From Actinomycetales bacterium (GTDB lineage: Bacteria; Actinomycetota; Actinomycetes; Actinomycetales; Cellulomonadaceae): 64,000 nucleotides of DNA. The notes under the pieces were generated by a model. That model saw nothing but the letters and a program-made list of their open reading frames with translations, searched no databases and was not told where the DNA came from. The DNA lies in contig JAHLLI010000005.1 in the NCBI GenBank assembly GCA_020444245.1, forward strand, positions 186,001 through 250,000, given 5' to 3'. The translations under genes and the position numbers were made by a program. Of this stretch, positions 2,756 through 24,016 are shown one piece after another (position 1 is the first letter of the stretch; each line of letters starts with the position of its first letter).

Positions 2756-2771
2756 ACACCCCCGCGGGTAT
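2756..2771. promoter_or_regulatory. CsoR/CstR-like operator, copy 1 (imperfect)
   Basis: ACACCCCCGCGGGTAT is a 16-bp imperfect inverted repeat with the same length and G/C-tract layout as the sites at 2811, 11154 and 16222. Its centre is 55 bp from the centre of the second site, about five helical turns. It is the weakest of the four copies. Confidence 0.4.
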
Positions 2772-2791
2772 GCAGAGGTCTGTCGTCCTCT

Positions 2792-2807
2792 TGTGATCTT
2801 TTTCACA
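2792..2807. promoter_or_regulatory. CRP-family binding site
   Basis: TGTGATCTTTTTCACA matches the CRP consensus half-sites exactly (TGTGA-N6-TCACA). GlxR and other actinobacterial CRP homologues bind the same motif. It lies 225 bp upstream of tusA and 3 bp before the operator at 2811, in a T-rich stretch that is unusual for this GC-rich DNA. Whether the site activates or represses cannot be told without a mapped start of transcription. Confidence 0.6.
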
Positions 2808-2810
2808 TGC

Positions 2811-2826
2811 ATACCCCTGGGGGTAG
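2811..2826. promoter_or_regulatory. CsoR/CstR-like operator, copy 2
   Basis: ATACCCCTGGGGGTAG is a near-perfect inverted repeat of ATACC halves separated by a G/C tract, the form bound by CsoR/RcnR/CstR-family repressors. The preceding bases make TGCATACCCC, much like TGCATATACCCC at the hydrogenase promoter, so the operator probably overlaps a -10 region. No CsoR-family gene is present in the window. Confidence 0.6.
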
Positions 2827-2880
2827 GGACGTTCTACCCCTCCGTCTCTCGTCACCCGGCACGACGCTGAGGGAGTGGCG

Positions 2881-3012
2881 ATGATGCTCGGCCCCGTCGA
2901 GGGCCTTCCACCCGGCCGGACACCCCGGTCCCTCCGCCACCTGCCCGCGCGCATCGCGAGCCCCACGAACCCCGCCACCTACGTCGGTGACGGCTGTCCT
3001 GCACCTGCCTGA
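2881..3012 (+). CDS. Possible 43-aa leader ORF before tusA
   Basis: ATGATG at 2881 follows a GAGGGAG ribosome-site-like sequence (2869-2875) and opens a 43-codon frame that stops 20 nt before the tusA ATG. The peptide is Pro/Arg rich, has no recognisable domain, and has a single Cys near its end in GDGCPAPA. Its position between the operators and tusA fits a leader peptide or uORF, and cysteine-attenuation leaders are known in actinobacteria. There is no run of Cys codons here, so a chance frame is equally possible. Confidence 0.3.
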   Translation: MMLGPVEGLPPGRTPRSLRHLPARIASPTNPATYVGDGCPAPA

Positions 3013-3032
3013 CCCGTCAAGAAGGAGACACC

Positions 3033-3290
3033 ATGTCCGTCGCAGTCGAGGAGCTCAAGGCCCTCACCAACACCACGGTCGTGGACGCCCGCGGCACCTC
3101 GTGCCCCGGCCCGATCCTCGCCGCCAAGAAGGCCGTCCGAGGCGTGTCCTCGGGCTCGGTCATGGAGGTCCTGGCCACGGACTCCGGCACCCTCAAGGAC
3201 CTGCCCGCGTGGGCCAAGAAGATGGGCCACGAGTACCTGGGCCACTACGAGGACTCGGGCTACCTGCGCCTCTTCATGAAGATGAAGTGA
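3033..3290 (+). CDS. tusA: TusA-family sulfur carrier protein
   Basis: This 85-residue protein has the TusA/SirA fold signature VVDARGTSCPGP, with the persulfide-carrying Cys at residue 24 in a CPGP motif, and a C-terminal GHEYLGHYED segment. TusA proteins accept sulfane sulfur as a cysteine persulfide and pass it to partner proteins in the cytoplasm. A good ribosome site (AAGGAG) precedes the ATG. It is the first gene of a run with very short gaps (tusA, mvhD-like, dsrE, two hdrA-like genes, small protein, qmoC-like). That setting suggests it feeds sulfur to, or takes it from, the DsrE/Hdr-Qmo proteins rather than serving tRNA thiolation. Two CsoR/CstR-like operators and a CRP box lie upstream. 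Confidence 0.9.
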   Translation: MSVAVEELKALTNTTVVDARGTSCPGPILAAKKAVRGVSSGSVMEVLATDSGTLKDLPAWAKKMGHEYLGHYEDSGYLRLFMKMK

Positions 3291-3297
3291 CCTGCGG

Positions 3298-3729
3298 ATG
3301 AGCGACCACGGCGGCACCGGCGAGCCGATGCCCCGGATCCTGGTGTTCTCGACGAACAACATCTCCGACCCCGGCATCGACCTCGCCGGGAGCCGGCACC
3401 TGCACTATCCGGCCACCGTCTCGGTGCTCGCGGTGCCGTGCTCCAGCGGCATCAAGCCCGCCTGGATCCTGCACGCGCTCGAGACGGGCCAGGACGGCGT
3501 CTTCATCGCCTCGGACGGCGAGGAGTGTGCCTACCTGCCCGACTGCGCCGAGCGCACCGCGAGCATCGTGACGCAGGCACAGGCCCTCATGGCCGAGAAG
3601 GGGCTCGAGCCCCAGCGCCTCAAGATGGCAGCGGTCTGCTCGGTGTGCGCCGAGCCGTTCGCCAACTACATGCGTGAGTTCGCCGCCGCCCTCAACGAGC
3701 TCGGGCCCCGTCCCGTCCCGGTCGGCTGA
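3298..3729 (+). CDS. MvhD/FlpD-family hydrogenase-Hdr iron-sulfur protein
   Basis: This 143-residue protein has the MvhD/FlpD outline: a core starting RILVFSTN, a DLAG...YP segment, then VSVLAVPC, GQDGVFIASDGEEC and LEPQRLKM. MvhD carries a [2Fe-2S] cluster and links hydrogenase or formate dehydrogenase to HdrA in methanogens; in many bacteria the domain is fused to the C-terminus of QmoB/HdrA. Here it is a separate gene 7 bp after tusA, which fits with the HdrA encoded at 7036 ending without this domain. Cysteines are at 48, 77, 83, 114 and 117. The first Cys-rich motif of classical MvhD is replaced by STNNIS, so cluster ligation may differ. The Met at residue 12 is an alternative start. Confidence 0.8.
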   Translation: MSDHGGTGEPMPRILVFSTNNISDPGIDLAGSRHLHYPATVSVLAVPCSSGIKPAWILHALETGQDGVFIASDGEECAYLPDCAERTASIVTQAQALMAEKGLEPQRLKMAAVCSVCAEPFANYMREFAAALNELGPRPVPVG

Positions 3730-3765
3730 CCCGCAACGTTCACTACCGGGAAGGGAACCCAAGAG

Positions 3766-4245
3766 GTGGAGTCGACAAAGAAGACGATCATCCTGTTCAG
3801 CGGTGACTTCGACAAGGTGATGGCCGCGTTCATCATCGCCAACGGCGCAGCCGCCATGGACGACGAGGTCGTCATGTTCTTCACGTTCTGGGGCCTGAAC
3901 GCGATCCGCAAGGAGTCGCCCGTCCAGGCGCCGAACAAGACGTTCGTCCAGAAGATGTTCGGCGCGATGATGCCGCGCGGCCCCAAGAAGCTCGGCATGT
4001 CGAAGATGAACTTCGCCGGCATGGGCCCCAAGCTCATGCAGCGCGAGATGAAGGCGCAGAACGTCATGTCGCTGCCCGAGCTCATCGAGACCGCGCGCGA
4101 GCAGGGCGTGAAGTTCATCGCCTGCACGATGTCCATGGACGTCATGGGCCTGAGCAAGGACGAGCTGCTCGACGACATCGAGTACGCCGGCGTGGCCTCG
4201 TACCTCGGTGAGGCCGACGAGTCGAACGTCAACCTCTTCATCTAG
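3766..4245 (+). CDS. DsrE-family sulfur-relay protein
   Basis: This 159-residue protein starts with the DsrE-like strand KKTIILFSGDFDK, has the MDDEVVMFFTFWGL segment and a single conserved cysteine (C120) in KFIACTMSMDVMG. This is the DsrE2 type (DsrE/DsrF-like), often fused to or encoded beside TusA. Such proteins exchange persulfide sulfur with TusA; DsrE3A and TusA work this way in sulfur oxidisers. A GTG start is used, 9-10 nt after GGGAAGGGA. The many Met and Lys residues at 65-100 are typical of this subfamily. It is third in the operon, just before the Hdr/Qmo-like genes. Confidence 0.85.
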   Translation: MESTKKTIILFSGDFDKVMAAFIIANGAAAMDDEVVMFFTFWGLNAIRKESPVQAPNKTFVQKMFGAMMPRGPKKLGMSKMNFAGMGPKLMQREMKAQNVMSLPELIETAREQGVKFIACTMSMDVMGLSKDELLDDIEYAGVASYLGEADESNVNLFI

Positions 4246-4300
4246 ACGCACGCCATCGGCGCGCCCTGACGGCGTGACGAGACAGGAGCAGGAGCCACTG

Positions 4301-7039
4301 ATGGACTACGACGTCCTGGTGATCGGCAGCGGGATCGGCGGCATGGAGTCGTCGATCAAGCTCGGCGACATGGGTTACAAGGTGCTGCTGGTCGAGAAGG
4401 AGGCCAGCGTCGGCGGACGGATGATCCTGCTGTCCAAGGTCTTCCCGACCCTCGACTGCGCGAGCTGCATCTCCGGCCCGAAGATGTCCTCGACGATCAA
4501 CCACCCGAACATCACCACGAAGACCTACTCCGAGGTGACCGGGATCAAGCGTCGCCCCGACGGTCGCTTCACCGCGACGGTCAAGGAGAAGTCGACGTTC
4601 GTCGACTGGGCGGCCTGCACCGGGTGCAGCGACTGCCAGACGGCGTGCACGGTCGCCGTGCCGGACGAGTTCAACGCCGACCTCGCCGCGCGGCGGGCCG
4701 CGTACATCGCCTTCCCCCAGGCGGTGCCCAAGAAGGCCGTGCTCGACCGCGAGGGCACGTCGCCGTGCATCGGCGCCTGCCCGGCCGGCATCAAGGCGCA
4801 CGGCTACGTCTCGCTGGTGCGGTCCGGCAAGGACGAGGAGGCGTTCCAGCTCGTCCTGGACGCCACGCCGCTGGTCGGCACCCTCGGCCGGGCCTGCTAC
4901 GCGCCGTGCGAGTCCGAGTGCACCCGCACCAAGCTCGAGGGCCCGGTGCCGATCCGGCTGATCAAGCGGTTCGCCGCCGACCAGCACTACGCGGCCAACG
5001 GTGCGACCCCGTCCGGGCCTGCCGTCGAGGTGGCCGAGCCGAACGGGAAGAAGGTCGCCGTCGTCGGCTCCGGCCCGGCCGGCCTGACCGCCGCGTGGCA
5101 GCTCGCGCGACAGGGCTACCAGGTCAAGATCTTCGAGAAGCGCTCGCAGCCGGGCGGGTTCCTGCGCCACGCGATCCCGTCCTACCGCCTGCCGCACGAG
5201 GTGGTGGACGCGGACATCGCGAACCTCACCTCGATCGGCGTCGAGATCGAGTGCGACGCGAAGATCGACGACATCGCCGCGCTCAAGGACTCCGGCTACG
5301 ACGCCGTCGTGGTGGCCACCGGCACGCAGAACGCGACGCCGATGAACGTGCCGAACGAGGACGCCGCAGGGTCGGTCAACGGCCTGGACTTCCTCGCGGA
5401 CGTCGCGAACGACAACGCCCCGGACCTGACCGGCAAGCGCGTCGTCGTGGTGGGCGGCGGCAACGTCGCGATGGACGCCGCGCGCGTCTCGCTGCGCCTC
5501 GGTGCTGCCGACGTCAAGGTCGTCTACCGCCGCACGCGCGCCGAGATGCCGGCGCACCACGTCGAGGCGGACGACGCCGAGGCCGAGGGCGCCCAGTTCG
5601 AGTTCCTGGTCACCCCGCTCGAGGTGCTCGCCACCGACGGGCAGGTCACCGGTGTCCGGCTGCAGAAGATGCAGCTGGGCGCGCCGGACGCCTCCGGGCG
5701 CCGCAGCCCCGAGCCGATCCAGGGCTCGGAGACCTCGGTCGCGTGCGACATGGTCATCTCCACGATCGGCATGAGCCCCGACGCCACGCTGTACGAGAAC
5801 GTCGTGACGGTCGGGCGCGGCAAGCGGATCGCGGTCGACCCCCACACCCTGCAGACCGAGGTGCCGTACCTGTTCGCGGCGGGCGACGTCGCGACCGGCG
5901 CGACGGACATCACGCGGGCGATCGGCGCGGGCCGGCGCGCGGCGCACATGGTCGACCGCTGGGTCAACGACCAGCCGATGACCGGTTTCACCGCGCTGGA
6001 CGACCGGATCGACACGATCGGTCACGACACCGTGCTGTCCCGCCAGACCGCGTTCGGCCACCGCAACCCGATCAAGGGCGCGGTCGACCTGACGCAGCTC
6101 CCGCGGGACTTCCACGAGATCGAGTCGCCGCTGACCGAGGAGCAGGCGCGTGCGGGCGCGGGCAGCTGCCTGGACTGCGGCGTGTGCTCGGAGTGCCAGG
6201 AGTGCGTGCACGCCTGCCCGGCGGACGCGATCCGGATGGACAAGCGCGACGTCGAGAACGACTTCGAGGTCGGTGCCGTCGTGGTCTCCACGGGCTACAA
6301 GCTGTTCGCGGCGGACAACAAGCCCGAGTACGGCTGGGGCAGGTACGCGAACGTCATCACCGGCATGCAGATGGACCGGCTGCTGGCCCCGACCCGGCCG
6401 TTCAACACCGTGCTACGGCCCGGCGACGGCAAGGTGCCCGAGCGGATCGCCTACATCTCCTGCACCGGCTCGCGCGACGCCCAGGTGGGCAACCCGCTGT
6501 GCTCGAAGGTCTGCTGCATGTACTCGATCAAGCAGAACCAGCTGATCATGGGTGCCTTGCCGTTGGCCGACGTGACCATGCACTACATGGACATGCGGGC
6601 CGCCGGGAAGCGCTACGACGAGTTCTACGAGCAGGCCAAGGACATGGGCGCGCAGTACATCCGCGGCCGCGTCTCGAAGGTCACCGAGAAGGAGAACGGC
6701 GACCTGGTCCTGCGGTACGAGGACACCGAGGGCACCGGCGAGATCGTCGAGGCCGAGTACGACCTGGTGGTCCTCGCGGTGGGCATCCAGCCCAACCGCG
6801 ACGTCGAGCGGCTGTTCACCGACGAGGAGCTCGGCCTGGACGAGTACTTCTACGTCGCCGAACCGAGCGAGGACCTCGACCCGGGGGTGACCGACGTGCC
6901 CGGCGTGTTCGTCGCCGGCACCGCGTCCGGCGCGAAGGACATCGTCGACACGATCGTGCACGCCGGAGCCGCCGTCGCCCAGGTCGCGGCGCACCTGGAG
7001 AAGGCCGAGCAGGCCACGAAGGCGGAGGTGCTGGCATGA
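4301..7039 (+). CDS. HdrA/QmoA-like flavoprotein with inserted GltD-type NAD(P)H module
   Basis: The 912-residue protein is a composite. Residues 1-100 hold an HdrA-type FAD fold (VLVIGSGIGGMESS) and a Cys pair in CASCISGPKMSS. C106-C112 is a CTGCSDC ferredoxin-like motif. From C156 (CIGACPAG) to about 590 lies a GltD/NfnB-like module with an Fe-S segment, an FAD site at 250 (KKVAVVGSGPAG) and an NAD(P) site at 379 (KRVVVVGGGNVAMD). A 4Fe-4S motif, CLDCGVCSECQEC, starts at 623, and the C-terminal half of HdrA follows with SCTGSRD and LCSKVCC. HdrA/QmoA proteins are flavin hubs that pass or bifurcate electrons. The insertion suggests direct NAD(P)H exchange, which QmoA of sulfate reducers lacks. 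The ATG at 4301 follows AGGAGCAGGAG. The gene overlaps the next one by 4 bp. Confidence 0.88.
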   Translation: MDYDVLVIGSGIGGMESSIKLGDMGYKVLLVEKEASVGGRMILLSKVFPTLDCASCISGPKMSSTINHPNITTKTYSEVTGIKRRPDGRFTATVKEKSTFVDWAACTGCSDCQTACTVAVPDEFNADLAARRAAYIAFPQAVPKKAVLDREGTSPCIGACPAGIKAHGYVSLVRSGKDEEAFQLVLDATPLVGTLGRACYAPCESECTRTKLEGPVPIRLIKRFAADQHYAANGATPSGPAVEVAEPNGKKVAVVGSGPAGLTAAWQLARQGYQVKIFEKRSQPGGFLRHAIPSYRLPHEVVDADIANLTSIGVEIECDAKIDDIAALKDSGYDAVVVATGTQNATPMNVPNEDAAGSVNGLDFLADVANDNAPDLTGKRVVVVGGGNVAMDAARVSLRLGAADVKVVYRRTRAEMPAHHVEADDAEAEGAQFEFLVTPLEVLATDGQVTGVRLQKMQLGAPDASGRRSPEPIQGSETSVACDMVISTIGMSPDATLYENVVTVGRGKRIAVDPHTLQTEVPYLFAAGDVATGATDITRAIGAGRRAAHMVDRWVNDQPMTGFTALDDRIDTIGHDTVLSRQTAFGHRNPIKGAVDLTQLPRDFHEIESPLTEEQARAGAGSCLDCGVCSECQECVHACPADAIRMDKRDVENDFEVGAVVVSTGYKLFAADNKPEYGWGRYANVITGMQMDRLLAPTRPFNTVLRPGDGKVPERIAYISCTGSRDAQVGNPLCSKVCCMYSIKQNQLIMGALPLADVTMHYMDMRAAGKRYDEFYEQAKDMGAQYIRGRVSKVTEKENGDLVLRYEDTEGTGEIVEAEYDLVVLAVGIQPNRDVERLFTDEELGLDEYFYVAEPSEDLDPGVTDVPGVFVAGTASGAKDIVDTIVHAGAAVAQVAAHLEKAEQATKAEVLA

Positions 7040-8787
7040 GCGAGACCGAGAGCCCCCAGCGCCGGATCGGGGTGTACATCTGCCACTGCGGCGGCAACAT
7101 CTCCGACTACGTCGACGTCGAGAGGGTCCGTGAGGCGATCTCGGCCGACCCGGACGTGGTGGTCGGCAAGACGACGCTGTTCGCGTGTGCCGACGGCACG
7201 CAGCACGAGATGATCGACGACATCCACGCCGAGGGCCTCGACGGCCTGGTCGTCGCGTCCTGCTCGCCCAAGCTGCACACCACCACGTTCCGCGGGGTGT
7301 CCACCCGGGCGGACCTGAACCCGTACGCCTACACCCAGGTGAACATCCGCGAGCAGGACTCGTGGGCGCACACCGACGACCACGAGGGCGCCACCCAGAA
7401 GGCCATCGCGCTCGTCCAGGCGGGCATCGCCAAGACCAGGCTGTCGCTCCCGCTCGAGCCGCTCCGGGTCGAGACCGTCCCGGCGACCATGGTCGTCGGC
7501 GGCGGGATCACCGGTCTGCGCACGGCGATCGGCCTGGCCGACATCGGCATCGCGGTCACCATCGTCGAGCGCGAGGCCGAGGTCGGGGGGTGGGTCGGCC
7601 GGCTCGGGCCGATGTTCCCGCACAACGCCTCCGGTCGCGACCAGATCTCGCAGCTGATGGCCGAGATCGCCAGGCGTCCGACGATCACGGTACTCACCAA
7701 CGCCGAGCTGGTCGGCAAGACCGGGTCGTTCGGCAACTACACCGCGAAGGTGAAGCTGCGCACCGAGACCACCGAGGAGCTGCGCCAGTTCCAGGTTGGC
7801 ACGTTCGTCATCGCCACCGGGGCGGACGTCTACTCCCCGGAGGTCGGCGAGCTCGGCTACGGCATCGACGGTGTGGTGACCATCCACGAGTTCGGCGCGC
7901 TCGTCGACGCCGCGCAGGGCAGCGGATCGCTGACCTGGCAGGGCCGCAAGGTGCGCTCGGTCGCCTACGTGTACTGCGTCGGCAACCGGCAGGTCGGCGG
8001 CAACGAGTACTGCTCGAAGTTCTGCTGCGCGGCCACGGTGCACGCCTCGATCAAGGTCGCCGACCTCGACCCGTCGATCCGTCAGTTCCACCTGCACCGT
8101 GACGTGCGGGCCTACGGCAAGTACGAGCTGATGTACACCGAGTCCCGCGAGCGCGGGTCGGTGTACATGCGCTACCCGGACGACGCCCTGCCCTCGATCG
8201 AGCAGATGCCCGACAAGCGGCTCGCGGTCACGGTCACCGACGCACTGACGTCGCAGGACGAGATCACGCTGCCGGTGGACCTCGTGGTGCTGGTCACCGG
8301 GATGGTCCCGCGGGACAACGACGACCTCACGACGCTGCTCAAGCTGCCCACCGGCGACGACGGGTTCTACAACGAGATCCACCCCAAGCTGCGGCCGGTG
8401 GAGACCGTCGTGGACGGCGTGCTGATCGCCGGCGCGTGCCAGGGCCCCAAGCCCGCCACCGAGGCGGTCAGCGGCGGCCTGGCCGCGGTCACGCAGAGCG
8501 CCGGCATCCTCAAGAAGGGGTTCGCCGAGCTCGACCCGCTCGTCGCCACCGTGACCGAGAGCCTGTGCACCGGCTGCGGCGACTGCCTGACCACCTGTCC
8601 CTACGACGCGATCTCGTCGTACGTGTGCGACGAGGGCCAGAAGGCCTCGATCGCCGCTGCGAGCTGCAAGGGCTGCGGTGGGTGCGTGCCGGTGTGCCCG
8701 GAGGACGCGATCGACCTGCTCGGCTACACCAGCGCCCAGATGATGGCCGCGATCGACGGCCTGTCGGTGAAGGAGCCCGTGGCATGA
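7036..8787 (+). CDS. hdrA: HdrA/QmoB-like flavoprotein with C-terminal ferredoxin domain
   Basis: This 583-residue protein begins with the HdrA N-terminal signature GVYICHCGGNISD, has an FAD-binding VVGGGITGLRTAIGLAD near residue 155, the HdrA Cys segment YCSKFCC near 325, and two 4Fe-4S motifs at the end (CTGCGDCLTTCP and CKGCGGCVPVCP). It matches HdrA/QmoB but lacks the MvhD domain that ends QmoB in sulfate reducers; that domain is encoded separately at 3298. It overlaps the preceding gene by 4 bp (ATGA) and has a GGAGG ribosome site. It probably forms the soluble arm of the complex with the protein at 4301, passing electrons to the membrane subunit at 9043. Confidence 0.88.
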   Translation: MSETESPQRRIGVYICHCGGNISDYVDVERVREAISADPDVVVGKTTLFACADGTQHEMIDDIHAEGLDGLVVASCSPKLHTTTFRGVSTRADLNPYAYTQVNIREQDSWAHTDDHEGATQKAIALVQAGIAKTRLSLPLEPLRVETVPATMVVGGGITGLRTAIGLADIGIAVTIVEREAEVGGWVGRLGPMFPHNASGRDQISQLMAEIARRPTITVLTNAELVGKTGSFGNYTAKVKLRTETTEELRQFQVGTFVIATGADVYSPEVGELGYGIDGVVTIHEFGALVDAAQGSGSLTWQGRKVRSVAYVYCVGNRQVGGNEYCSKFCCAATVHASIKVADLDPSIRQFHLHRDVRAYGKYELMYTESRERGSVYMRYPDDALPSIEQMPDKRLAVTVTDALTSQDEITLPVDLVVLVTGMVPRDNDDLTTLLKLPTGDDGFYNEIHPKLRPVETVVDGVLIAGACQGPKPATEAVSGGLAAVTQSAGILKKGFAELDPLVATVTESLCTGCGDCLTTCPYDAISSYVCDEGQKASIAAASCKGCGGCVPVCPEDAIDLLGYTSAQMMAAIDGLSVKEPVA

Positions 8788-9041
8788 CCACGACGACTCA
8801 GCGGTCCCTGCGGGACCCGCGCGAGGTCATCCGCGAGGAGATGGCCATGCACGCGGTGATCAAGGCCGCGTTGGCAGACGGGCCGCTGACGGTGCCCCAG
8901 CTCGCCGAGGCGATCGGCCACCCGGCCGTGGAGGTCCTCTACTGGGTGATGGGCATGCGGCGGTACGGACACCTGGTCGAGATGCCCGACGAGGACGACG
9001 AGGGCTACTTCCCCTACGCCCTCCCAGGAAAGGGAGCGTGA
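8784..9041 (+). CDS. Small winged-helix-like protein in the Hdr/Qmo operon
   Basis: This 85-residue protein is encoded in a 4-bp overlap with the upstream hdrA (ATGA) and ends one base before the next start, so it is translationally linked to the complex. Residues 34-68 read like a helix-turn-helix or winged helix: GPLTVPQLAEAIGHP, a recognition-helix-like VEVLYWVMGMRRYG, then a wing-like HLVEMPDEDDEGYF. I do not recognise the family with certainty. It could be a small regulator or, given its place between two structural genes, a wHTH-fold subunit or assembly factor. It has no cysteine, so it is unlikely to bind Fe-S clusters. Confidence 0.75.
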   Translation: MTTTTQRSLRDPREVIREEMAMHAVIKAALADGPLTVPQLAEAIGHPAVEVLYWVMGMRRYGHLVEMPDEDDEGYFPYALPGKGA

Positions 9042-9042
9042 G

Positions 9043-10224
9043 ATGGCCACCGTCGTCGACATCGACCTGATGGCGGACGTGCAGAAGTTCGGCGCCGCCG
9101 AGGTCAACGCGTGCTTCAGCTGCGGCAACTGCACGGCGATCTGCCCCCTGTCGGACAACGACGCGACGTTCCCGCGCCGGGTGATCCGCTACGCGCAGGT
9201 CGGCCTCAAGGACGACCTGCTCGGTTCCAAGGAGCTGTGGGCCTGCTACCACTGCGGGCTGTGCTCGGAGTCGTGCCCGACCGAGGCCGACCCCGGCGAG
9301 TTCATGGCCACGGCCCGCCGGTACGCGATCGCGTCCTACGAGCCGACCGGGCTGGCGCGAGTGCTCTACACCAAGCCCGTGATCGGCACCGTGATCGCGG
9401 TGGTCGTCGCGCTGTTCTTCGCCGGGTTCATGATGTCCCAGGCGGAGCTCGGCGGGATCGACGCGCCGCGGCTCGCGCTGTTCGAGTTCATCCCGAACGA
9501 CCTCATCCACTGGATGGGCATCGTGGTGATGGGCCTGATGTTCGTGGCCGGCGCCTGGGGCGTGGTGCGGATGGCGCGGGCGGTCGGCAGGCGTGAGGGT
9601 GTGACGCTCAAGGACACCTTCGGTTCGGGGGCGGCCTGGAAGCGCACGTTCGTGGCGCTGTGGGACTCGATCGGCGTCGAGTCGCTGGGCCAGAAGCGGT
9701 TCCGGGACGACTGCCACGACGACCAGGTGGTCGAGCCGCTGTGGCGGCGTCGCTGGCTGGTGCACGCCCTGACCATCTGGGGGTTCCTCGGGCTGTTCGC
9801 CGCGACCCTGATCGACTACGGGCTCGAGCTGCTCGGGATCAAGGAGACCGGAACGCCGATCCCGATCTGGTACCCGTCGCGCGCGCTCGGCACGGTCGGC
9901 GGTCTGATGCTGATGTACGGCGTGACGGTCTTCATGCTCGGTCGGTGGAAGAAGTGGACCACCGCGCAGGCCGAGTCGAAGGGCTCGGACTGGCTGCTGC
10001 TGACGCTGCTGTGGCTCACCGGGTTCACCGGGTTCGTCATCGAGGTCGCGCTGTACGTCACGACCCCGCCGGTGTGGGGCTACTGGTTCTTCCTGGTGCA
10101 CGTCGCGATCGCGATGGAGCTGCTGCTGATGCTCCCGTTCACCAAGTTCGCCCATGTGATGTACCGGCCGGTCGCGCTGTTCTTCTACGCGCTGGCCAGG
10201 GACAAGAGGGCTGCCGAGGCCTGA
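9043..10224 (+). CDS. QmoC-like HdrC-cytochrome b fusion (quinone-reacting subunit)
   Basis: The 393-residue protein has two HdrC-type 4Fe-4S motifs, CFSCGNCTAICP near 24-35 and CYHCGLCSESCP near 67-78, followed by about six membrane helices between residues 108 and 385. Conserved His residues (LIHWMGI, LVHALTIWG, LVHVAIAME, FAHVMY) are suited to binding haem b, as in NarI/HdrE-type domains. This HdrC-HdrE arrangement defines QmoC, the menaquinone-reacting subunit of the Qmo complex. It is last in the operon, and a terminator hairpin follows. Neither AprAB nor Sat, the usual partners of Qmo in sulfate reduction, is present in this window, so the physiological partner is unknown. Confidence 0.88.
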   Translation: MATVVDIDLMADVQKFGAAEVNACFSCGNCTAICPLSDNDATFPRRVIRYAQVGLKDDLLGSKELWACYHCGLCSESCPTEADPGEFMATARRYAIASYEPTGLARVLYTKPVIGTVIAVVVALFFAGFMMSQAELGGIDAPRLALFEFIPNDLIHWMGIVVMGLMFVAGAWGVVRMARAVGRREGVTLKDTFGSGAAWKRTFVALWDSIGVESLGQKRFRDDCHDDQVVEPLWRRRWLVHALTIWGFLGLFAATLIDYGLELLGIKETGTPIPIWYPSRALGTVGGLMLMYGVTVFMLGRWKKWTTAQAESKGSDWLLLTLLWLTGFTGFVIEVALYVTTPPVWGYWFFLVHVAIAMELLLMLPFTKFAHVMYRPVALFFYALARDKRAAEA

Positions 10225-10251
10225 GCCCCGGCCGTCCGGCCCCCATCGCCC

Positions 10252-10285
10252 GGGCCGCCCCGCTGCGACGACGCCGGGGCGGCCC
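10252..10285. terminator. Terminator hairpin between convergent genes
   Basis: GGGCCGCCCC (10252-10261) and GGGGCGGCCC (10276-10285) form a perfect 10-bp stem with a 14-nt loop. It sits between the stop of the qmoC-like gene and the stop of the convergent hydrolase gene, so it can serve both strands. Confidence 0.7.
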
Positions 10286-10311
10286 GCCGGCATGCCCGCG
10301 GGTCGGACCGT

Positions 10312-11070
10312 TCAGTGCCCGGCGTCGAAGGCGACGACCCGCTCGACGAACCTCTCGGGCGCGGCCAGGTGCGGGTAGTGGCCGGTCGGCGTCCAGGTCT
10401 CGACCACGGCGGACGGGATCACCGAGGTCAGCCAGGCCGCGTAATCCGGGCCGAGGTCGATGCCGTGCAGCGAGAGGTAGGGGGTTCCGGCGGGCAGCGC
10501 GGTGACCTCGGCGACCGTCGCGGCGAGCTCGTCGGGGGACAGGTCCAGCAGCGGTGACCACATGCCCAGCACCACGTCCTGCTCGGGGGAGCGCAGGGCC
10601 TCGAGCCGGGCGACCTCGGCCGGGTCGAGCTCGCCGTACAGCGAGGCGAACATCTGCTGGACGAAGGGCTCGAAGCCGTCGCCGCGCAGCAGCGGCGCGG
10701 CCGGCGCGACCTGGGCCTGCATCGCGCCGAGCGCGAGCGCCTGGTCGACGTTCACCACGCCGCGCACCGGGTGGTCATGGGCGTAGGCGGTCGCGACCAC
10801 GCCGCCCATGGAGTGCCCGACGACCAGCGGGGCCGGGCCGTCGGGATCGACCTCGTCGACCACGGCGCGCACGTCCGCGGCGAGGGTCGCCAGGTCGTAG
10901 GGCGCGGTGCGGGGGGACTCCCCGTGGCCGCGTAGGTCCACCCGGAGCACGGTGTACCGGTCCTCCAGGTGGATCGGGTCCCAGCTGTGCCGGTTCTCGG
11001 TGATGCCGTGCAGCAGCACGACCCGGGGGCCGCTGCCGGCGACGTCGTGGGCGAGGGGGGCTGTGGTCAT
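10312..11070 (-). CDS. Alpha/beta hydrolase
   Basis: This 252-residue protein has an N-terminal LLHGITENRHSW oxyanion segment, the nucleophile elbow GHSMGG near residue 95 and a C-terminal His in TGHYPHLAAPERF, completing a Ser-Asp/Glu-His triad. Such single-domain hydrolases act on esters, lactones or haloalkane-like substrates; the substrate cannot be inferred. The ATG at 11070 is chosen; a GTG two codons upstream (11076) is possible. It is transcribed away from the TDT gene, so the regulatory DNA at 11071-11183 is shared between divergent genes. Confidence 0.8.
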   Translation of the reverse strand: MTTAPLAHDVAGSGPRVVLLHGITENRHSWDPIHLEDRYTVLRVDLRGHGESPRTAPYDLATLAADVRAVVDEVDPDGPAPLVVGHSMGGVVATAYAHDHPVRGVVNVDQALALGAMQAQVAPAAPLLRGDGFEPFVQQMFASLYGELDPAEVARLEALRSPEQDVVLGMWSPLLDLSPDELAATVAEVTALPAGTPYLSLHGIDLGPDYAAWLTSVIPSAVVETWTPTGHYPHLAAPERFVERVVAFDAGH

Positions 11071-11153
11071 GGGCACAGTGTGGCCCGTCCGCCCGCACCG
11101 TGCTGGTGGTCGGCGCCGGCGAGGTCCGGACGCGCCCGGCAGAGCCCTGGAAT

Positions 11154-11169
11154 ATACCTAGGGGGGTAT
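11154..11169. promoter_or_regulatory. CsoR/CstR-like operator before the TDT transporter
   Basis: ATACCTAGGGGGGTAT has perfect ATACC/GGTAT ends around a 6-bp core and is 16 bp long, like the copies at 2811 and 16222. It overlaps a possible -10 box (TATACC, 11153-11158) and ends 14 bp before the ATG, so binding there should block transcription of the transporter. Confidence 0.6.
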
Positions 11170-11183
11170 GTGTTGCCGTCGCC

Positions 11184-12296
11184 ATGGCCGACCCGACGAG
11201 CGCCGCCGTCGGCGCCCCCGCACGCCCTGCCGCTCCTGCCCCTGCACCGGCCCCAGGGCCCGCTGCCGCCGACGTCCCGCCGGCCGAGGCTCCGCCGGAG
11301 GCGATCCCCACCGCCTACGTCGAGCCGGAGCCGGTCGATCGCGCTCCGCGGCTCGCGCACCTGCCGGTGACCTTCTTCGCCGTGGTCATGGGCGTCGCAG
11401 GCATGTCGCTCGCCTGGCTGCGGGCGTCGGCCCTGCTGGGAGCGCCGGTCGCGGTCGGGCACGTGCTCTTCTGGCTCGCGATGGCGCTGTACCTGGTGGT
11501 GCTGGGCGCCTATGCGGCCAAGGCCGTCCGGCACCGCGAGGCGGTGCGCAGCGAGCTCCACCACCCCGTGCGCCTCGCCTTCGTGCCGACCTCGACGATC
11601 GCGCTGCTGCTGCTGGCCACCGCCGGCCAGGAGATCGTGCCCGGCCTGGCGCGGGGGCTGTGGTGGGGCGGCGCCGTCGGGCAGCTGGCCATGACGCTCT
11701 ACGTGGTCAGCGCCTGGATCAGTCGGTCCACGTTCGGGACGCAGCATGTCAACCCGGCCTGGTTCATCCCGGTCGTCGGCCTCATGGTGGTCCCGCTCGC
11801 GGGTGTCCGGTACGGCCCGCTCGACCTGGTCTCGTTCTTCTTCTCGGTCGGGATGCTGTTCTGGCTCGGCATGCTGCCGATGGTCCTCAGCCGGCTGTTC
11901 GTGCACGAGCACCCGATGCCCCACCAGCTGCTGCCCACCCTCGCCGTGCTCATCGCTCCGCCGGCCGTCGGATTCCTCTCGTGGCTCAAGCTGCACGGCG
12001 GCGAGCTCGACATCCCGGCACGGATGCTGTTCGACGTCGCGGTCTTCTTCGCCCTGCTCTTCGTGACTCAGGTCGGGCGGCTGCGGCGGATCCCGTTCTT
12101 CCTGTCCTGGTGGGCCTACTCGTTCCCGCTCGCCGCGCTGAGCGTGGCGACCACCGTGATGGCCGCCGAGGTCGGTGGCGTCGGGCTGGTCGCCGGGGCG
12201 TGGACGTTGCTCGCCGCGGTGAGCGGGCTGGTCGTGATGCTGCTCGCACGGACCTCCGCAGCCGTCGCGCGTGGTCGGATCTGCGTCCCGGAGTAG
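11184..12296 (+). CDS. TDT-family transporter (TehA/SLAC1/Ssu1-like), possible sulfite exporter
   Basis: The 370-residue protein has a short Ala/Pro-rich cytoplasmic start and then ten hydrophobic segments. The first one, HLPVTFFAVVMGVAGMSLAW, carries the conserved TDT/SLAC1 pattern of a Met-Gly turn. Family members include the tellurite-resistance protein TehA, the anion channel SLAC1, C4-dicarboxylate carriers and the fungal sulfite pump Ssu1. The substrate cannot be read from the sequence. However, the gene carries the same CsoR/CstR-like operator as the tusA-Qmo and hydrogenase operons, which makes export of sulfite or a related sulfur anion a reasonable inference. The ATG at 11184 is preferred because the operator and likely promoter lie just upstream of it. 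Confidence 0.8.
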   Translation: MADPTSAAVGAPARPAAPAPAPAPGPAAADVPPAEAPPEAIPTAYVEPEPVDRAPRLAHLPVTFFAVVMGVAGMSLAWLRASALLGAPVAVGHVLFWLAMALYLVVLGAYAAKAVRHREAVRSELHHPVRLAFVPTSTIALLLLATAGQEIVPGLARGLWWGGAVGQLAMTLYVVSAWISRSTFGTQHVNPAWFIPVVGLMVVPLAGVRYGPLDLVSFFFSVGMLFWLGMLPMVLSRLFVHEHPMPHQLLPTLAVLIAPPAVGFLSWLKLHGGELDIPARMLFDVAVFFALLFVTQVGRLRRIPFFLSWWAYSFPLAALSVATTVMAAEVGGVGLVAGAWTLLAAVSGLVVMLLARTSAAVARGRICVPE

Positions 12297-12317
12297 TTCA
12301 CCCAGAGTTCACGGGAT
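12296..12317 (+). promoter_or_regulatory. PHO-box-like direct repeat
   Basis: GTTCACC (12296-12302) and GTTCACG (12307-12313) are spaced exactly 11 nt apart, matching the direct-repeat units to which actinobacterial PhoP binds. The first repeat starts at the last base of the TDT stop codon. The nearest downstream gene is the small ORF at 12381. No phoPR pair is identified here. Confidence 0.5.
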
Positions 12318-12380
12318 CAGGACTGGCGCAATCGCCTGGGACCTAGGACACTAGTCATAGGACGAATCTAGGAGGACTCG

Positions 12381-12473
12381 ATGGCGAACCACCCTACCCA
12401 CGACGTCGACCGCGACAAGGACGCGACCACGCGGGACACCCTGGTGGGCAACCCGAACCGAGTGCGTCTGTGA
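12381..12473 (+). CDS. Small 30-residue protein of unknown function
   Basis: The ATG follows a near-perfect ribosome site (AGGAGGA, 12370-12376) with a 4-nt gap. The frame encodes 30 charged residues, beginning MANHPTHDVDRDKD and ending GNPNRVRL, with no membrane segment and no cysteine. It is followed 14 nt later by a strong intrinsic terminator and preceded by a PHO-box-like repeat, so it looks like a complete, separately transcribed unit. I do not recognise the family. The strong translation signal and terminator argue for a real small protein or a short regulatory RNA with a coding part. Confidence 0.55.
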   Translation: MANHPTHDVDRDKDATTRDTLVGNPNRVRL

Positions 12474-12487
12474 GCTGACTGCGACGA

Positions 12488-12518
12488 GGGCCCGTGCCGG
12501 ACGGTACGGGCCCTTTCT
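12488..12518 (+). terminator. Intrinsic terminator of the small ORF
   Basis: GGGCCCGTGCC (12488-12498) pairs with GGTACGGGCCC (12503-12513), an 11-bp stem with one G-U pair and a 4-nt loop, followed by TTTCT. It is one of the clearest rho-independent terminators in the window. Confidence 0.8.
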
Positions 12519-12664
12519 GCTGCCCCGGACGGGGCGACGCCCGACCTTCAGGGCCCACCGGTCCGGCGCCCGGCGCCGTCGCGAGGGTCAGTGGTCGGTC
12601 GTAGCGTGGCACCAGGCCCGGGCACGGAGCCCGTGGCGGTCCCTGGTGGCCTCGGGAGGGTGCG

Positions 12665-13180
12665 ATGGACGTGTCGGCGGTGCTGGTCGACGGCTACGGC
12701 CGGATCCAGGAGGAGGTGCGACGCGTCCTGCGCGGCCTCGACGACGATCTCCTGTCGGCGGTCCCCGAGCCAGGCTCGAACACGATCGCGTGGCTGGTCT
12801 GGCACCTGACCCGGGTCCAGGACGACCACCTGGCCGACGCGTTCGGCGGAGAGCAGGTCTGGGTGGCCGGCGGCTGGTCGGACCGCTTCGCGCTGCCGCT
12901 GCCGGTCGACGACACCGGCTACGGCCACAGCGCGGCGGAGGTGGCCGCGGTGCGTGCACCGGGCGCGCTGCTGCTCGAGTACCACGAGGCGGTGCACACC
13001 CGGTCGGTCGAGCTGCTGGCCGCGGTGACGCCGGCCGAGCTGGACCGCATCGTCGACACCCGGTGGGACCCGCCGGTCACGCTCGGCGTCCGCCTGGTGA
13101 GCGTGCTCGCCGACGACCTCCAGCACGTCGGCCAGGCCGCCTACCTGCGCGGGCTGCTCGCGCGCCGCGTCTCCGCCTGA
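12665..13180 (+). CDS. DinB/DUF664-family protein (mycothiol-dependent enzyme superfamily)
   Basis: This 171-residue all-helical protein has the metal-site pattern of the DinB superfamily: NTIAWLVWHLTRVQDDH near 40-56, a middle EYHEAVHTR, and a C-terminal LADDLQHVGQAAYLRG. The His residues in these three helices form the divalent-metal site. Actinobacterial members include mycothiol S-transferases and maleylpyruvate isomerase-like proteins. Its substrate is unknown. It is followed 16 bp later by the SDR gene, with which it may be co-transcribed. Confidence 0.75.
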   Translation: MDVSAVLVDGYGRIQEEVRRVLRGLDDDLLSAVPEPGSNTIAWLVWHLTRVQDDHLADAFGGEQVWVAGGWSDRFALPLPVDDTGYGHSAAEVAAVRAPGALLLEYHEAVHTRSVELLAAVTPAELDRIVDTRWDPPVTLGVRLVSVLADDLQHVGQAAYLRGLLARRVSA

Positions 13181-13196
13181 GCCCTAGGGTGAGCGC

Positions 13197-14183
13197 GTGA
13201 CCCTGCGCGTGCTCTTCCTCGGCGGTACCGGTGTGATCAGCTCGGCCAGCTCGGCGCTGGCCGTCGAACGCGGCATCGACCTCACGTTGTTCACCAGGGG
13301 CGGCTCGGGTCGGCCGGTGCCGGACGGCGCCCGCGTCCGGCACGTCGACGTGCGCGACCCGGCCGCGCTGCGCGAGGCGGTGGCCGGCCAGGAGTACGAC
13401 GCCGTCGTCGACTGGCTCGCGTTCACGCCCGACCACGTGCAGGCCGACCTCGAGGTGTTCGAGGGCAGCGTCGGCCAGCTCGTGTTCATCAGCTCGGCCT
13501 CGGCCTACCAGACCCCGCCCGCGCGCCTGCCCGTCACCGAGTCCACCCCGCTGCGCAACCCGTGGTGGCAGTACTCCCGCGACAAGATCGCCTGCGAGGA
13601 CGTGCTCATGGCCGCCTACCGCGACCGGGGCGCGCCGGTGACGATCATCCGTCCGTCGCACACCTACGACCCGTCGCTGATCCCGCTCGAGGGCGGCTGG
13701 ACCGCCGTGGAGCGGATGCGGCAGGGCCGTCCCGTGGTGGTGCACGGCGACGGGACGTCGTTGTGGACGCTCACCCACCACCGCGACTTCGCGCGCGGCC
13801 TGGTGCCGCTGCTCGGCGACCCGCGGGCGGTGGGCGAGGCGTTCGGCATCACCGGCGACGACGTGCTGACCTGGGACCAGATCACCCATGCGCTCGCGGC
13901 GGCCGCCGGCGTCCGGGCCAGGATCGTGCACGTGCCGTCCGATGTCATCAACGCGGAGGACCCGCGCTGGGGGGCCGGGCTGCTCGGCGACAAGGCTCAC
14001 TCGATGGTGTTCGACACCACGAAGCTGCGTCGCGTGGTGCCCGACTTCACCACGACCGTGCGTTTCGAGGCCGGCGCGCGCGAGATCGTCGCGTGGCACG
14101 ACGCCGACCCGGCGCGCAAGCGGGTCGACCCCGAGCTGGACGCTCTGATGGACCGCCTGGTCGCGCGCTTCTCGGTCGACTGA
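13197..14183 (+). CDS. NAD-dependent epimerase/dehydratase family protein (extended SDR)
   Basis: The 328-residue protein starts with a Rossmann nucleotide-binding segment, LRVLFLGGTGVISSASS, has VRDPAALREA at the adenine-side position and FISSASAYQ near residue 103. The classical YxxxK appears as YSRDK near 125. The middle (IIRPSHTYDP) and C-terminal parts resemble NAD-dependent sugar epimerases and isoflavone-reductase-like enzymes. The substrate is not evident. The GTG start is supported by a TAGGGT -10-like box at 13185-13190, six nt upstream, which predicts a leaderless transcript. Confidence 0.8.
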   Translation: MTLRVLFLGGTGVISSASSALAVERGIDLTLFTRGGSGRPVPDGARVRHVDVRDPAALREAVAGQEYDAVVDWLAFTPDHVQADLEVFEGSVGQLVFISSASAYQTPPARLPVTESTPLRNPWWQYSRDKIACEDVLMAAYRDRGAPVTIIRPSHTYDPSLIPLEGGWTAVERMRQGRPVVVHGDGTSLWTLTHHRDFARGLVPLLGDPRAVGEAFGITGDDVLTWDQITHALAAAAGVRARIVHVPSDVINAEDPRWGAGLLGDKAHSMVFDTTKLRRVVPDFTTTVRFEAGAREIVAWHDADPARKRVDPELDALMDRLVARFSVD

Positions 14184-14228
14184 GGGGACCAACGACCCCG
14201 ACCGCTCGCCGGGCTGCTCCGGACAATG

Positions 14229-14262
14229 GCGACGTGTCTCGCAACGGCGCGAGGCACGTCGC
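14229..14262 (+). repeat. Long inverted repeat in the 5' region of the OYE gene
   Basis: GCGACGTGTCTCGC (14229-14242) pairs with GCGAGGCACGTCGC (14249-14262), a 14-bp stem with one T-G wobble and a 6-nt loop. It ends 13 nt before the ATG, directly against the GGGGGAGG ribosome site. It could be an operator or an mRNA hairpin that limits or protects translation of the flavoprotein. Confidence 0.5.
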
Positions 14263-14275
14263 CCCCGGGGGAGGT

Positions 14276-16168
14276 ATGGACCACCTGCTGTCGCCGTATC
14301 GCCTCGGCGGGCTCGAGCTGCGCAACCGCATCGCTTTCCCCCCGATGACGACGCGACTGTCGGGTCCGGACGGGCACGTGGCCGCGCGCGAGATCGCCTT
14401 CCTGACCGCCAGGGCGCGCGGCGGGGCGGGCCTGATCGTCACCGGCCCCTTCCTGGCCGGGACCGCGATCGAGGAGCCGGCCGGGCTGCTGCGGGCCGAC
14501 GACGACGCGTTCGTGCCCGGCATCGCCAGGCTGGTCGACGCGCTTCGGCGCGAGGGCGCTGCGGTGGGGGCCCAGCTGACCCCTGGCCTCGGCAGGCTGG
14601 CCCGGCCCAGCGGCGAGGCCCCTGTGAGCGCCTCGGCGGTCGACACGCCGGACGGGCGGCGCTGCCGGGAGCTGTCCGGCGCCGAGGTGGAGCAGCTCGT
14701 GACGGACGCCGAGCGGGCTGCGGCACGGCTGGCCGAGGCTGGTGTGGACCTGATCGACGTGGACGCGCGGGGCGGGGGCCTGCTCGACCAGTTCCTCAGC
14801 GAGCTCTGGAACCGGCGGGCCGACGCGTGGGGCGGGGACCTGGCAGGGCGCGCCCGGCTGCTCCTGGCGACCGTCGCCGCCGTGCGCCGCGGTGCGCCCG
14901 GCCTGCCGGTGAGCGTCCGGCTGTCCCTGGCCCAGCACCTGCCGGGCGGCCGCGAGCTGGCCGAGTCGGTCCGAGTCGCGGCGATGCTCGCCCGAGCCGG
15001 CGTCGACCTGGTCGCTGCGCAGGAAGGTGCCGCCGAGCTGCCCTACCTCGTCGTCCCGGACCACCACCAGCCGCCCGGCGCGCACCTGGCGGCCGCGGCG
15101 CGGCTGAGGCGCGACGTCGGGGTCCCGGTCCTGGTGACCGGTGCGACCACGCTGGGCCAGGCCGAGACGGCGCTCGCCGCCGGCGACGTGGACCTGGTGG
15201 GGCTGGGACGGGCGCTGGTGGCCGACCCGGACCTACCGCGGCGGCTGGCCGACGGCGGCCGCCGGAGCCGGCCCTGCGTGCGCTCCAACACCTGCCTGGA
15301 CGCGGTGCGGGCGGGCCGCTCGCTGAGCTGCGCGGTCAACCCGATGGCCGGCTTCGAGACGGCCCTCGCCGTGCGGCCCGCACCTCGGGCCCAGCACGTC
15401 GTGGTGGTCGGCGGAGGCCCGGCCGGGCTCGAGGCGGCGCGGGTCGCTGCACGTCGGGGGCACGCGGTCGACTTGTACGAGGCGGGCTCGCAGGTCGGTG
15501 GCGTGCTCGTCCGCGCGGCGCGGCCGGGGTTCAAGAGCGAGCTGCTGGACCTCGTCGCGTGGTACCGCGCCGAGCTGGCCGAGCTCGGGGTCACGGTGCA
15601 CCTGGACCGTCCGGTCCGGATGGGCTCGTCGGTGCTCGCCGAGGCCGGGCTCGTCGTGCTCGCCACGGGTGCCCGGCCGGTGCGGCCCGATATCTCCGGA
15701 CTCGGCCGCAGCGAGGTCGTCGACGTGCTGGACGTGCGTCGGGCCGATCTCGGACGGCGCGTGGTGATGATCGGCGGAGGGACCTCCGGCGCGGACGCCG
15801 CGCTCGACCTGGCCGACCGCGGCCATCGGGTGACCCTCGTCGAGGCCGGTGACGAGATCGCGCCGGGCGGCCCGTCGGTCAGCCGGGCGGCGCTGCTGGC
15901 CGGCCTCGCGGAGCGCGGGGTGCCCGTGCTCACGGGCACCTTGGTGCACAGCATCGACGACGACGGCGTGCACGCGGTCGGGCCGGACGGTCCGGTGCGT
16001 CTGCCGGCCGACAGCGTGGTCCTGGCGGCCGGGGTGCTGCCCAGCCGGGAGCTCGCGGCGGGCGGGGTGCTCGAGGACCCGCGCGTGCACCTGGTGGGCG
16101 ACTGCGCCTCGCCGGGGACCCTCGGCGACGCGATCCACGCGGGCTTCGCGGCGGGTCTCGCGCTCTAG
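14276..16168 (+). CDS. Old-Yellow-Enzyme-type NADH:flavin oxidoreductase (2,4-dienoyl-CoA reductase-like)
   Basis: This 630-residue protein has an FMN-binding TIM barrel (1-320; RNRIAFPPMTT near the start), an iron-sulfur segment at 334-352 and a C-terminal FAD/NAD(P) region with VVVVGGGPAGLEAARVAA near 380 and VVMIGGGTSGADAALDLAD near 495. This layout matches 2,4-dienoyl-CoA reductase and trimethylamine dehydrogenase. The cluster segment reads CVRSNTC...C (C334, S337, C340, C352), so the second of the four expected cysteine ligands is Ser. Codon 15284-15286 is TCC. The cluster may be altered or absent. The start at 14276 follows GGGGGAGG. The substrate is unknown, and no obvious partner gene is nearby. 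Confidence 0.8.
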   Translation: MDHLLSPYRLGGLELRNRIAFPPMTTRLSGPDGHVAAREIAFLTARARGGAGLIVTGPFLAGTAIEEPAGLLRADDDAFVPGIARLVDALRREGAAVGAQLTPGLGRLARPSGEAPVSASAVDTPDGRRCRELSGAEVEQLVTDAERAAARLAEAGVDLIDVDARGGGLLDQFLSELWNRRADAWGGDLAGRARLLLATVAAVRRGAPGLPVSVRLSLAQHLPGGRELAESVRVAAMLARAGVDLVAAQEGAAELPYLVVPDHHQPPGAHLAAAARLRRDVGVPVLVTGATTLGQAETALAAGDVDLVGLGRALVADPDLPRRLADGGRRSRPCVRSNTCLDAVRAGRSLSCAVNPMAGFETALAVRPAPRAQHVVVVGGGPAGLEAARVAARRGHAVDLYEAGSQVGGVLVRAARPGFKSELLDLVAWYRAELAELGVTVHLDRPVRMGSSVLAEAGLVVLATGARPVRPDISGLGRSEVVDVLDVRRADLGRRVVMIGGGTSGADAALDLADRGHRVTLVEAGDEIAPGGPSVSRAALLAGLAERGVPVLTGTLVHSIDDDGVHAVGPDGPVRLPADSVVLAAGVLPSRELAAGGVLEDPRVHLVGDCASPGTLGDAIHAGFAAGLAL

Positions 16169-16197
16169 GGCAACAGCCCCGCGCAATGTCCGGGCCA

Positions 16198-16237
16198 TTG
16201 GTCCCGTGCCGCCTCTTGCATATACCCCGGGGGGTGT
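16198..16237 (+). promoter_or_regulatory. Hydrogenase promoter with CsoR/CstR-like operator
   Basis: ATACCCCGGGGGGTGT (16222-16237) is the fourth copy of the 16-bp operator. A possible -35 (TTGGTC, 16198-16203) lies 17 nt from a possible -10 (TATACC, 16221-16226), so the operator would cover the -10 and start region. The hydB ATG is about 105 nt downstream. Confidence 0.55.
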
Positions 16238-16341
16238 GTTTCCCCAGGTCAGCGGTGGTACAAGTCCAGACCTTCGTCCTCCCCGGGCTAGCCCCCCATG
16301 GCCCACGCTGGGCGTGCACGCCAAGGTCCTAGGGAGGGCAC

Positions 16342-24015: not shown

Positions 24016-24016
24016 G

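Follow-up and report, generated by a model that had tools for sequence, protein, structure and literature searches.

The 64-kb window analyzed here (the whole stretch of DNA, C11:186001-250000 of an actinobacterial genome labelled G000, a 4.41 Mb assembly of 44 contigs) carries four copies of a 16-bp palindrome of the form ATACCCC-NN-GGGGTAT, i.e., TAC-N8-GTA. Two copies precede an operon of sulfur-carrier and Hdr/Qmo-like genes that starts with tusA, one precedes a SLAC1/TDT family gene and one precedes a [NiFe]-hydrogenase operon, hydBGDA. We propose that the palindrome is the operator of a CstR-type repressor that would respond to persulfide. The sites and the genes behind them are as follows:

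2756..2771, no strand: CstR-type 16-bp site 1 of the tusA-Hdr/Qmo promoter, ACACCCCCGCGGGTAT, a weaker copy
2811..2826, no strand: CstR-type 16-bp site 2 of the tusA-Hdr/Qmo promoter, ATACCCCTGGGGGTAG
3033..3290, plus strand: TusA-family sulfur carrier with a CPGP motif (Pfam TusA 4.5e-21)
3298..3729, plus strand: FlpD/MvhD-like electron-transfer protein (Pfam FlpD 2.1e-29)
3766..4245, plus strand: DsrE2-like sulfurtransferase (Pfam DrsE_2 4.7e-64)
4301..7039, plus strand: HdrA-like flavoprotein with a glutamate-synthase-small-subunit-like part (NCBIfam HdrA2 7.6e-137 and PRK12771 4.8e-147, both below curated cut-offs)
7036..8787, plus strand: second HdrA/Qmo-like flavoprotein (NCBIfam HdrA2 2.6e-138, below cut-off)
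8784..9041, plus strand: protein of 85 amino acids (no NCBIfam or Pfam match)
9043..10224, plus strand: QmoC-like membrane subunit (NCBIfam qmoC 1.7e-59, below cut-off)
11154..11169, no strand: CstR-type 16-bp site of the SLAC1/TDT transporter, ATACCTAGGGGGGTAT
11184..12296, plus strand: SLAC1/TDT family anion channel (Pfam SLAC1 1.1e-49)
16222..16237, no strand: CstR-type 16-bp site of the hydBGDA promoter, ATACCCCGGGGGGTGT
16342..17490, plus strand: HydB, iron-sulfur subunit (NCBIfam sulfhyd_HydB 3.7e-39, below cut-off)
17487..18314, plus strand: HydG, NAD(P)/FAD diaphorase subunit (NCBIfam cytochrome-c3 hydrogenase subunit gamma 1.1e-43 and sulfhyd_HydG 8.9e-31, below cut-offs)
18316..19131, plus strand: HydD, small subunit (NCBIfam ShyD 1.6e-51, below cut-off; Pfam Oxidored_q6 1.8e-24)
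19128..20429, plus strand: HydA, [NiFe] large subunit (NCBIfam ShyA 3.2e-80, below cut-off; Pfam NiFeSe_Hases 2.7e-28)
20426..20908, plus strand: HycI-type maturation protease (Pfam HycI 2.3e-10)

The letters of the four 16-mers are identical to those in an earlier note on this DNA, which had described four inverted motifs of equal length in promoter regions. Within the window, matches to ATACCCNNNGGGGTAT with up to two mismatches occur at these four places only. They amount to eight strand-matches, far above 100 dinucleotide shuffles (mean of 0.21, largest value 2). The assignment of the sites to the tusA-Hdr/Qmo, TDT and hydBGDA promoters agrees with the gene distances. The tusA start (3033) is 261 and 206 bp downstream of sites 1 and 2, and the hydB start is 104 bp downstream of its site. 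The SLAC1/TDT site lies 14 bp upstream of an in-frame ATG at 11184, which we took as the start because the Pfam match is in that frame; our gene-calling script chose a later start at 11367.

Across the genome, 34 distinct places match with up to two mismatches on the better strand (12 exact, 10 with one mismatch and 12 with two). The strand-matches number 32 forward and 28 reverse, compared with 0 and 4 for a reversed control pattern, and these controls together with the window shuffles reject a random occurrence of the sites. All 22 places with at most one mismatch are intergenic, although the coding share of the fetched DNA is ~90%; because the regions were picked around sites, a chance probability derived from this share is indicative only. 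Among the 12 two-mismatch places six fall inside genes, so many of them are probably noise. One intergenic two-mismatch place is 71 bp before an Nfn/Sud-like pair and has a counterpart in the related genome G107.

The 22 best places define 21 promoter regions (that of tusA has two) and are 9-261 bp before the assigned starts, with genes called by our own codon-usage script and not a published gene finder. By Pfam, their targets are mostly sulfurtransferases and thiol-redox proteins. These include three thioredoxins, a rhodanese followed by a metallo-beta-lactamase-rhodanese protein (probably persulfide-dioxygenase-like), a rhodanese lipoprotein, a single-domain rhodanese, a rhodanese-cstR pair and a CoA-disulfide-reductase-like protein with a rhodanese domain. 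Two further targets are flavoproteins that we read as SQR-like from a match to Pfam Pyr_redox_2 only, one of which is followed by DsrC and DsrE2. A DsbD-type membrane protein with a thioredoxin-fold/rhodanese partner, a YgaP-type membrane domain and cydA (site 151 bp upstream) are also behind sites, as are the tusA-FlpD-DsrE2-HdrA-HdrA-85aa-QmoC operon, the SLAC1/TDT gene, two hydBGDA operons, a CMD-family protein and two short-chain dehydrogenases. Some sites lie between divergent genes, so that the second gene could be the target. Eight of the 12 rhodanese-domain proteins of the genome (14 matches counted as 12 proteins, with two pairs sharing an open frame) are in first or second position behind a site. 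Random placement of the motif, which the earlier note had named as grounds for dropping the idea of a regulon, is thus contradicted by the intergenic position of all 22 best places, most of them before sulfur or thiol-redox genes. Three of the loci behind these sites, all outside the window, are the following:

C6, L023 1351-5475: second complete hydBGDA operon (HydB 57% identical), with its own 16-bp site 89 bp upstream
C10, L033 2945-5416: fusion of 823 amino acids (CoA-disulfide-reductase-like, rhodanese, TusA and DsrE2), with a site 108 bp upstream
C32, 9911-10174, minus-strand operon: CstR-type regulator of 87 amino acids (PF02583 6.8e-20, over cut-off)

The earlier note had placed the regulator gene outside the window, and the CstR-type gene is indeed on another contig, C32. 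The genome has four CsoR-family genes, three with a Cys-His-Cys set and exactly one of CstR type. In the C32 protein, C35 and C64 align with the cysteines of 7mq1, and Gly60 stands where the three other paralogues and CsoR 2hh7 have His. This position, four residues before the second Cys, is what we take to be that of the copper-ligand His, so that the C32 protein lacks the Cys-His-Cys ligand set of copper CsoR. Its best PDB matches are 7mq1-3 (9e-12), deposited under the CsoR name; a review figure legend names 7MQ2 as CstR (PMC9774590; this and the other publications are cited from excerpts unless the main text is mentioned). The gene order on the minus strand of C32 is rhodanese (Pfam), cstR, a methyltransferase-like gene and a CoA-disulfide-reductase-like gene. 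Two exact sites lie in this region, 9 bp upstream of the rhodanese gene and 122 bp upstream of the reductase gene, and the homologue that the earlier note expected therefore exists and has an exact site before its own operon.

The pairing of CstR and palindrome recurs in most genomes of the genus. A CstR protein was detected in 17 of 19 genus genomes (E ≤1e-10); an eighteenth, weak hit (L086) is of the Cys-His-Cys type and was left out of the count. The 16-bp site was found at 15 of the 17 orthologue loci (≤1 mismatch, fetched flanks of up to 1.5 kb), and equivalents of C35 and C64 are present in all 14 proteins printed at full length. Exact palindromes (ATACCCCNNGGGGTAT) occur in 17 of the 19 genomes, and the control pattern in none of the 19. 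G050, which has no exact palindrome, has CstR and a palindrome one base off near cstR, and G130 has neither an exact palindrome nor a CstR match.

Two same-genus species, G066 and G107, were examined in detail. They have 16 and 20 places with at most one mismatch, respectively, all intergenic (controls 0), and 15 of 16 and 17 of 20 are before orthologues of own-genome targets or in the same site region. The second tusA site is kept in all three species, and G107, in which the tusA operon is on another contig than hydB, keeps both. The aligned copy of site 1 is ATACCGGCGGGGGTAT in G107 and a degenerate GTACGGCCGGGGGTAT in G066. All three hyd1 operons keep the hydB site 102-104 bp upstream (ATACCCCGGGGGGTGT, ATACCCCCTGGGGTGT and ATACCCCCATGGGTAT), with conserved arms around a changed centre. 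At the second hydrogenase operon, G000 and G066 have the site, and in G107 we detected only a 17-bp resemblance with three mismatches. Sites, regulator gene, targets and conservation are direct observations on these genomes.

A survey of the family recovered 17 hydB loci in 14 of 150 genomes, of which five loci, in three species, have the site and 12 do not; one locus (L065) matched only from residue 69, and the 13 kb around it are without a site (≤2 mismatches). We also compared named hydB loci from many phyla (the best 80 of 584, 77 of them with at least 200 bp of upstream DNA). Three of these (L096, L098, and L099) look like family genomes already counted, and the set may leave out records very near the genome of the window. 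A wider association of hydB with CstR was not found beyond the three-species clade in the 17 family loci and these 80 named loci. A tree built from 39 HydB rows separates the two hydrogenase lineages of the clade, and its well-supported branches require the site label to have changed at least twice (three times in the best tree). Given that the site is limited to the clade and occurs in two separate HydB lineages, its recruitment to hydrogenases looks young and local, and apparently involved two operons.

The hydrogenases themselves have the four-subunit set of group 3b (iron-sulfur, diaphorase, small, and large subunits), and their best NCBIfam hits are to sulfhydrogenase or related subunits, all below the equivalog cut-offs. 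The metal-ligand motifs of the window HydA are RICGIC and DPCISCSVH, and both copies have the nickel-binding CxxC motifs (RICGIC and DPCISC) near the two ends. A third PF00374 match in the genome (C10:64501) covers profile positions 1-68 only, and we therefore do not claim a site before every [NiFe]-type protein. Genes that by sequence look like hypE, hypD, hypC, and hypF adjoin hydBGDA on the minus strand (21513-26377), with no 16-bp site.

Several observations weigh against a regulon of this extent, or against the identity of its members. For the TDT site, no counterpart was recovered from G066 or G107; the conservation that the earlier note expected in related species therefore holds for the tusA-Hdr and hydB sites, kept in both relatives, and fails for this one. 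The cydA site has no counterpart with up to three mismatches in the fetched upstream DNA of G066 and G107, so that cydA is not supported as a conserved target. The CMD-family protein and the two short-chain dehydrogenases among the 22 best targets have no evident sulfur role. The one exceptional place in G066 is before a gene that appears thioredoxin-reductase-like. In G107, the three exceptions are a gene that appears glutaredoxin-like, a divergent pair that matches none of the fetched own-genome genes, and another pair for which the own-genome copies are inside the window but have no site. G139 has no CstR match, yet one exact palindrome. In five other species of the genus that possess CstR, hydB is without the site, and no 16/17-bp site (≤2 mismatches, 350 bp) was found at any of the best 80 of 584 named hydB loci; among the loci compared, the hydrogenase site is confined to a three-species clade. 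In addition, the C32 regulator passes no NCBIfam cut-off, and the Hdr and hydrogenase subunit scores are below the curated ones.

With these points considered, we assign a probability of about 0.82 to the following reading: the CstR-type C32 protein uses the 16-bp operator, and persulfide derepresses about 20 transcription units that include two hydrogenases. The sulfur regulon of CsoR/CstR type with a [NiFe] hydrogenase proposed in the earlier note is supported by the genome-wide sites, the CstR gene and the relatives. We infer binding, inducer, direction of the response and hydrogenase function; the persulfide response in particular is expected from the type of protein. Repression by CstR and ScCsoR lasts until their cysteines are modified by sulfane sulfur (PMC9774590, PMC7533328). 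By analogy, a CstR tetramer would occupy the promoters and repress them when reactive sulfur is low. A rise in persulfide or polysulfide would modify Cys35 and Cys64, CstR would leave the DNA and some 20 transcription units would be switched on. The products would be rhodaneses, TusA/DsrE/DsrC carriers, SQR-like and CoA-disulfide-reductase-like enzymes, thioredoxins, the Hdr/Qmo-like membrane complex, the SLAC1/TDT protein (a candidate sulfite exporter) and the two group-3b-like [NiFe]-hydrogenases. The latter may reduce sulfane sulfur with NAD(P)H (or H2), or may dispose of electrons as H2. The data agree about equally well with reduction of sulfane sulfur and with an outlet for electrons when sulfide blocks respiration.

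The same sites could belong to a copper-sensing CsoR, with the hydrogenase and sulfur genes forming part of a copper response. The genome has three copper-type CsoR paralogues, and copper CsoR operators have similar half-sites, but those of Streptomyces share TAC-X9-GTA, a 17-bp spacing (PMC3902906). The window sites have TAC-N8-GTA, as does the S. coelicolor sulfane-sulfur sensor operator, ATACCn6GGTAT, of 16 bp (PMC7533328). A 17-bp pattern with one extra central base matched 12 places in the genome, eight of them with at most one mismatch (control 3 forward and 2 reverse). Six of these eight fall on C24 and C40 (L048, L049, and L050), which between them hold all three copper-type csoR genes. 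Three of the six are within ~3.5 kb of such a gene, and the other three are on C24. No 16-bp place (≤2 mismatches) was found on C24 or C40. Because 17-bp and not 16-bp sites accompany the copper-type csoR genes, we reject copper CsoR as the owner of the 16-bp sites and regard a copper response as highly improbable. The one-base difference (TAC-N8-GTA for CstR-type and TAC-N9-GTA for copper) provides a rule by which regulons can be assigned within one genome. Only slightly less improbable is that the hydB and tusA sites are unused and were inherited by chance from a recent ancestor. In its favour, the hydB site was found in only three close species, but the operator arms are kept while the centre and much of the flanking DNA change, two separate hydrogenase lineages carry the site, and G107 keeps two sites at a tusA operon on another contig than hydB.

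A third alternative concerns the use of the hydrogenase and is compatible with the regulatory part of the CstR reading: CstR would control hydB, but the enzyme would act as an electron valve and not as a sulfur reductase. Sulfide would block heme-copper oxidases, and electrons would shift to H2 and cytochrome bd. The 16-bp site 151 bp before cydA fits such a shift, as does the conservation at hyd1 promoters of GGGYCATTGGTCCCG, which is DosR-box-like. In addition, Hyh of M. smegmatis belongs to the dos regulon, and cytochrome bd is important for H2S resistance (PMC8125079). On the other hand, the cydA site is missing from the fetched DNA of both relatives, and the HydDB table states that group 3b, which couples NADPH oxidation to H2 evolution, "may have" sulfhydrogenase activity (PMC5037454), which leaves room for a sulfur role against a pure valve. 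We consider the valve plausible, at somewhat less than even odds.

Additional elements in two of the promoters suggest layered control. At hydB, boxes are present at 16192-16205 (GGGCCATTGGTCCC) and 16269-16279 (GACCTTCGTCC) and are kept in the three hyd1 promoters, and in several other hydB promoters a similar position is taken by GGTCCCTGG. GGGYCATTGGTCCCG, GGGCCATTGGTCCC, and GACCTTCGTCC resemble the DosR box, so that low oxygen and sulfur may both enter into hydrogenase control. In the window, TTGCAT stands immediately before the hydB operator, and in G066 the operator overlaps TTGACA; relative to the -35 consensus, this position fits promoter occlusion. In the tusA promoter, a palindrome (TGTGATCTTTTTCACA, 2792-2807) ends three bases before the second site, and its TGTGA-N6-TCACA form, also found in G066 and G107, resembles a CRP/FNR-type box. 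Upstream of the operators, a TusA-family open reading frame (2462-2722) has RPGP in place of the CPGP of the TusA at 3033, as in G066, and so appears to be without the catalytic Cys. The TusA-FlpD-DsrE2-HdrA-HdrA-85aa-QmoC order joins sulfur carriers to a Qmo-like membrane complex in an actinobacterium. A lipoate-binding protein (lbpA), a trait of sHdr systems, was not identified among the called genes of the operon, to which the search was confined.

The sites bear on the in vivo role of group 3b hydrogenases: because a conserved, putative operator for a reactive-sulfur repressor stands before two separate hydrogenase lineages, a sulfur role becomes directly testable in an actinobacterium. 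The arrangement suggests that an accumulation of reactive sulfur induces hydrogen metabolism in this bacterium.

The closest likeness among known systems is ScCsoR of S. coelicolor, a two-Cys CsoR-family repressor that senses sulfane sulfur and has a 16-bp ATACCn6GGTAT operator (PMC7533328). It controls itself, a rhodanese, a persulfide dioxygenase and a sulfite transporter, four genes, whereas here about 20 candidate units include Hdr/Qmo-like, SQR-like, thioredoxin and two [NiFe]-hydrogenase operons. Sulfane-sulfur sensing is established for ScCsoR, whereas the candidate sensor here is known from its sequence. CstR of S. aureus shares the Cys pair and persulfide-responsive detoxification genes (PMC5480029, PMC9774590), but likely controls a single operon directly (PMC5480029), and the sites here are dispersed over the genome. 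Larger CstR-like sets are a DsrE/TusA/SQR/PDO gene cluster under YrkD in B. licheniformis (PMC9918477) and a dispersed sulfur-oxidation (Sox) regulon under TTHA1953 in T. thermophilus, with an operator, TACNNTACNNNNGTANNGTA, that differs from the 16-bp site (PMC10318464). The word "hydrogenase" is absent from the main texts of both reports. SurR of Thermococcales exerts thiol-based, sulfur-responsive control of hydrogenase genes, including those of the cytosolic SHI and SHII, but is archaeal, has an ArsR-like wHTH fold and turns hydrogenase genes off with sulfur (PMC12162507), whereas derepression would be expected here. SurR is the nearest sulfur-hydrogenase regulator that we found. More tentatively, and with less than even odds, a persulfide sensor in a bacterium would directly induce [NiFe]-hydrogenases, in the opposite sense to SurR; H2/NADPH-linked sulfhydrogenase activity would then be part of the reactive-sulfur defence of an actinobacterium, and two separate hydrogenase lineages would have joined the regulon in one small clade. 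The box at hydB that we take to be DosR-like provides a link to Hyh of M. smegmatis. That actinobacterial hydrogenase is tied to hypoxia and redox balance, and the excerpt mentions no sulfur switch (PMC8125079), whereas here a CstR-type site is added. In the open-access literature, mostly titles and the starts of abstracts, we found no report of hydrogenase control by a CsoR-family sulfur sensor, and in the CstR and persulfide papers excerpted, mentions of hydrogenase are confined to reference titles or CO. The earlier note knew of no description of the combination. Novelty of this breadth does not hold for the sensor and its 16-bp operator, published for Streptomyces, and the regulator-operator pair is known in kind; the large CstR-type regulon with two [NiFe]-hydrogenases appears to be the new part.

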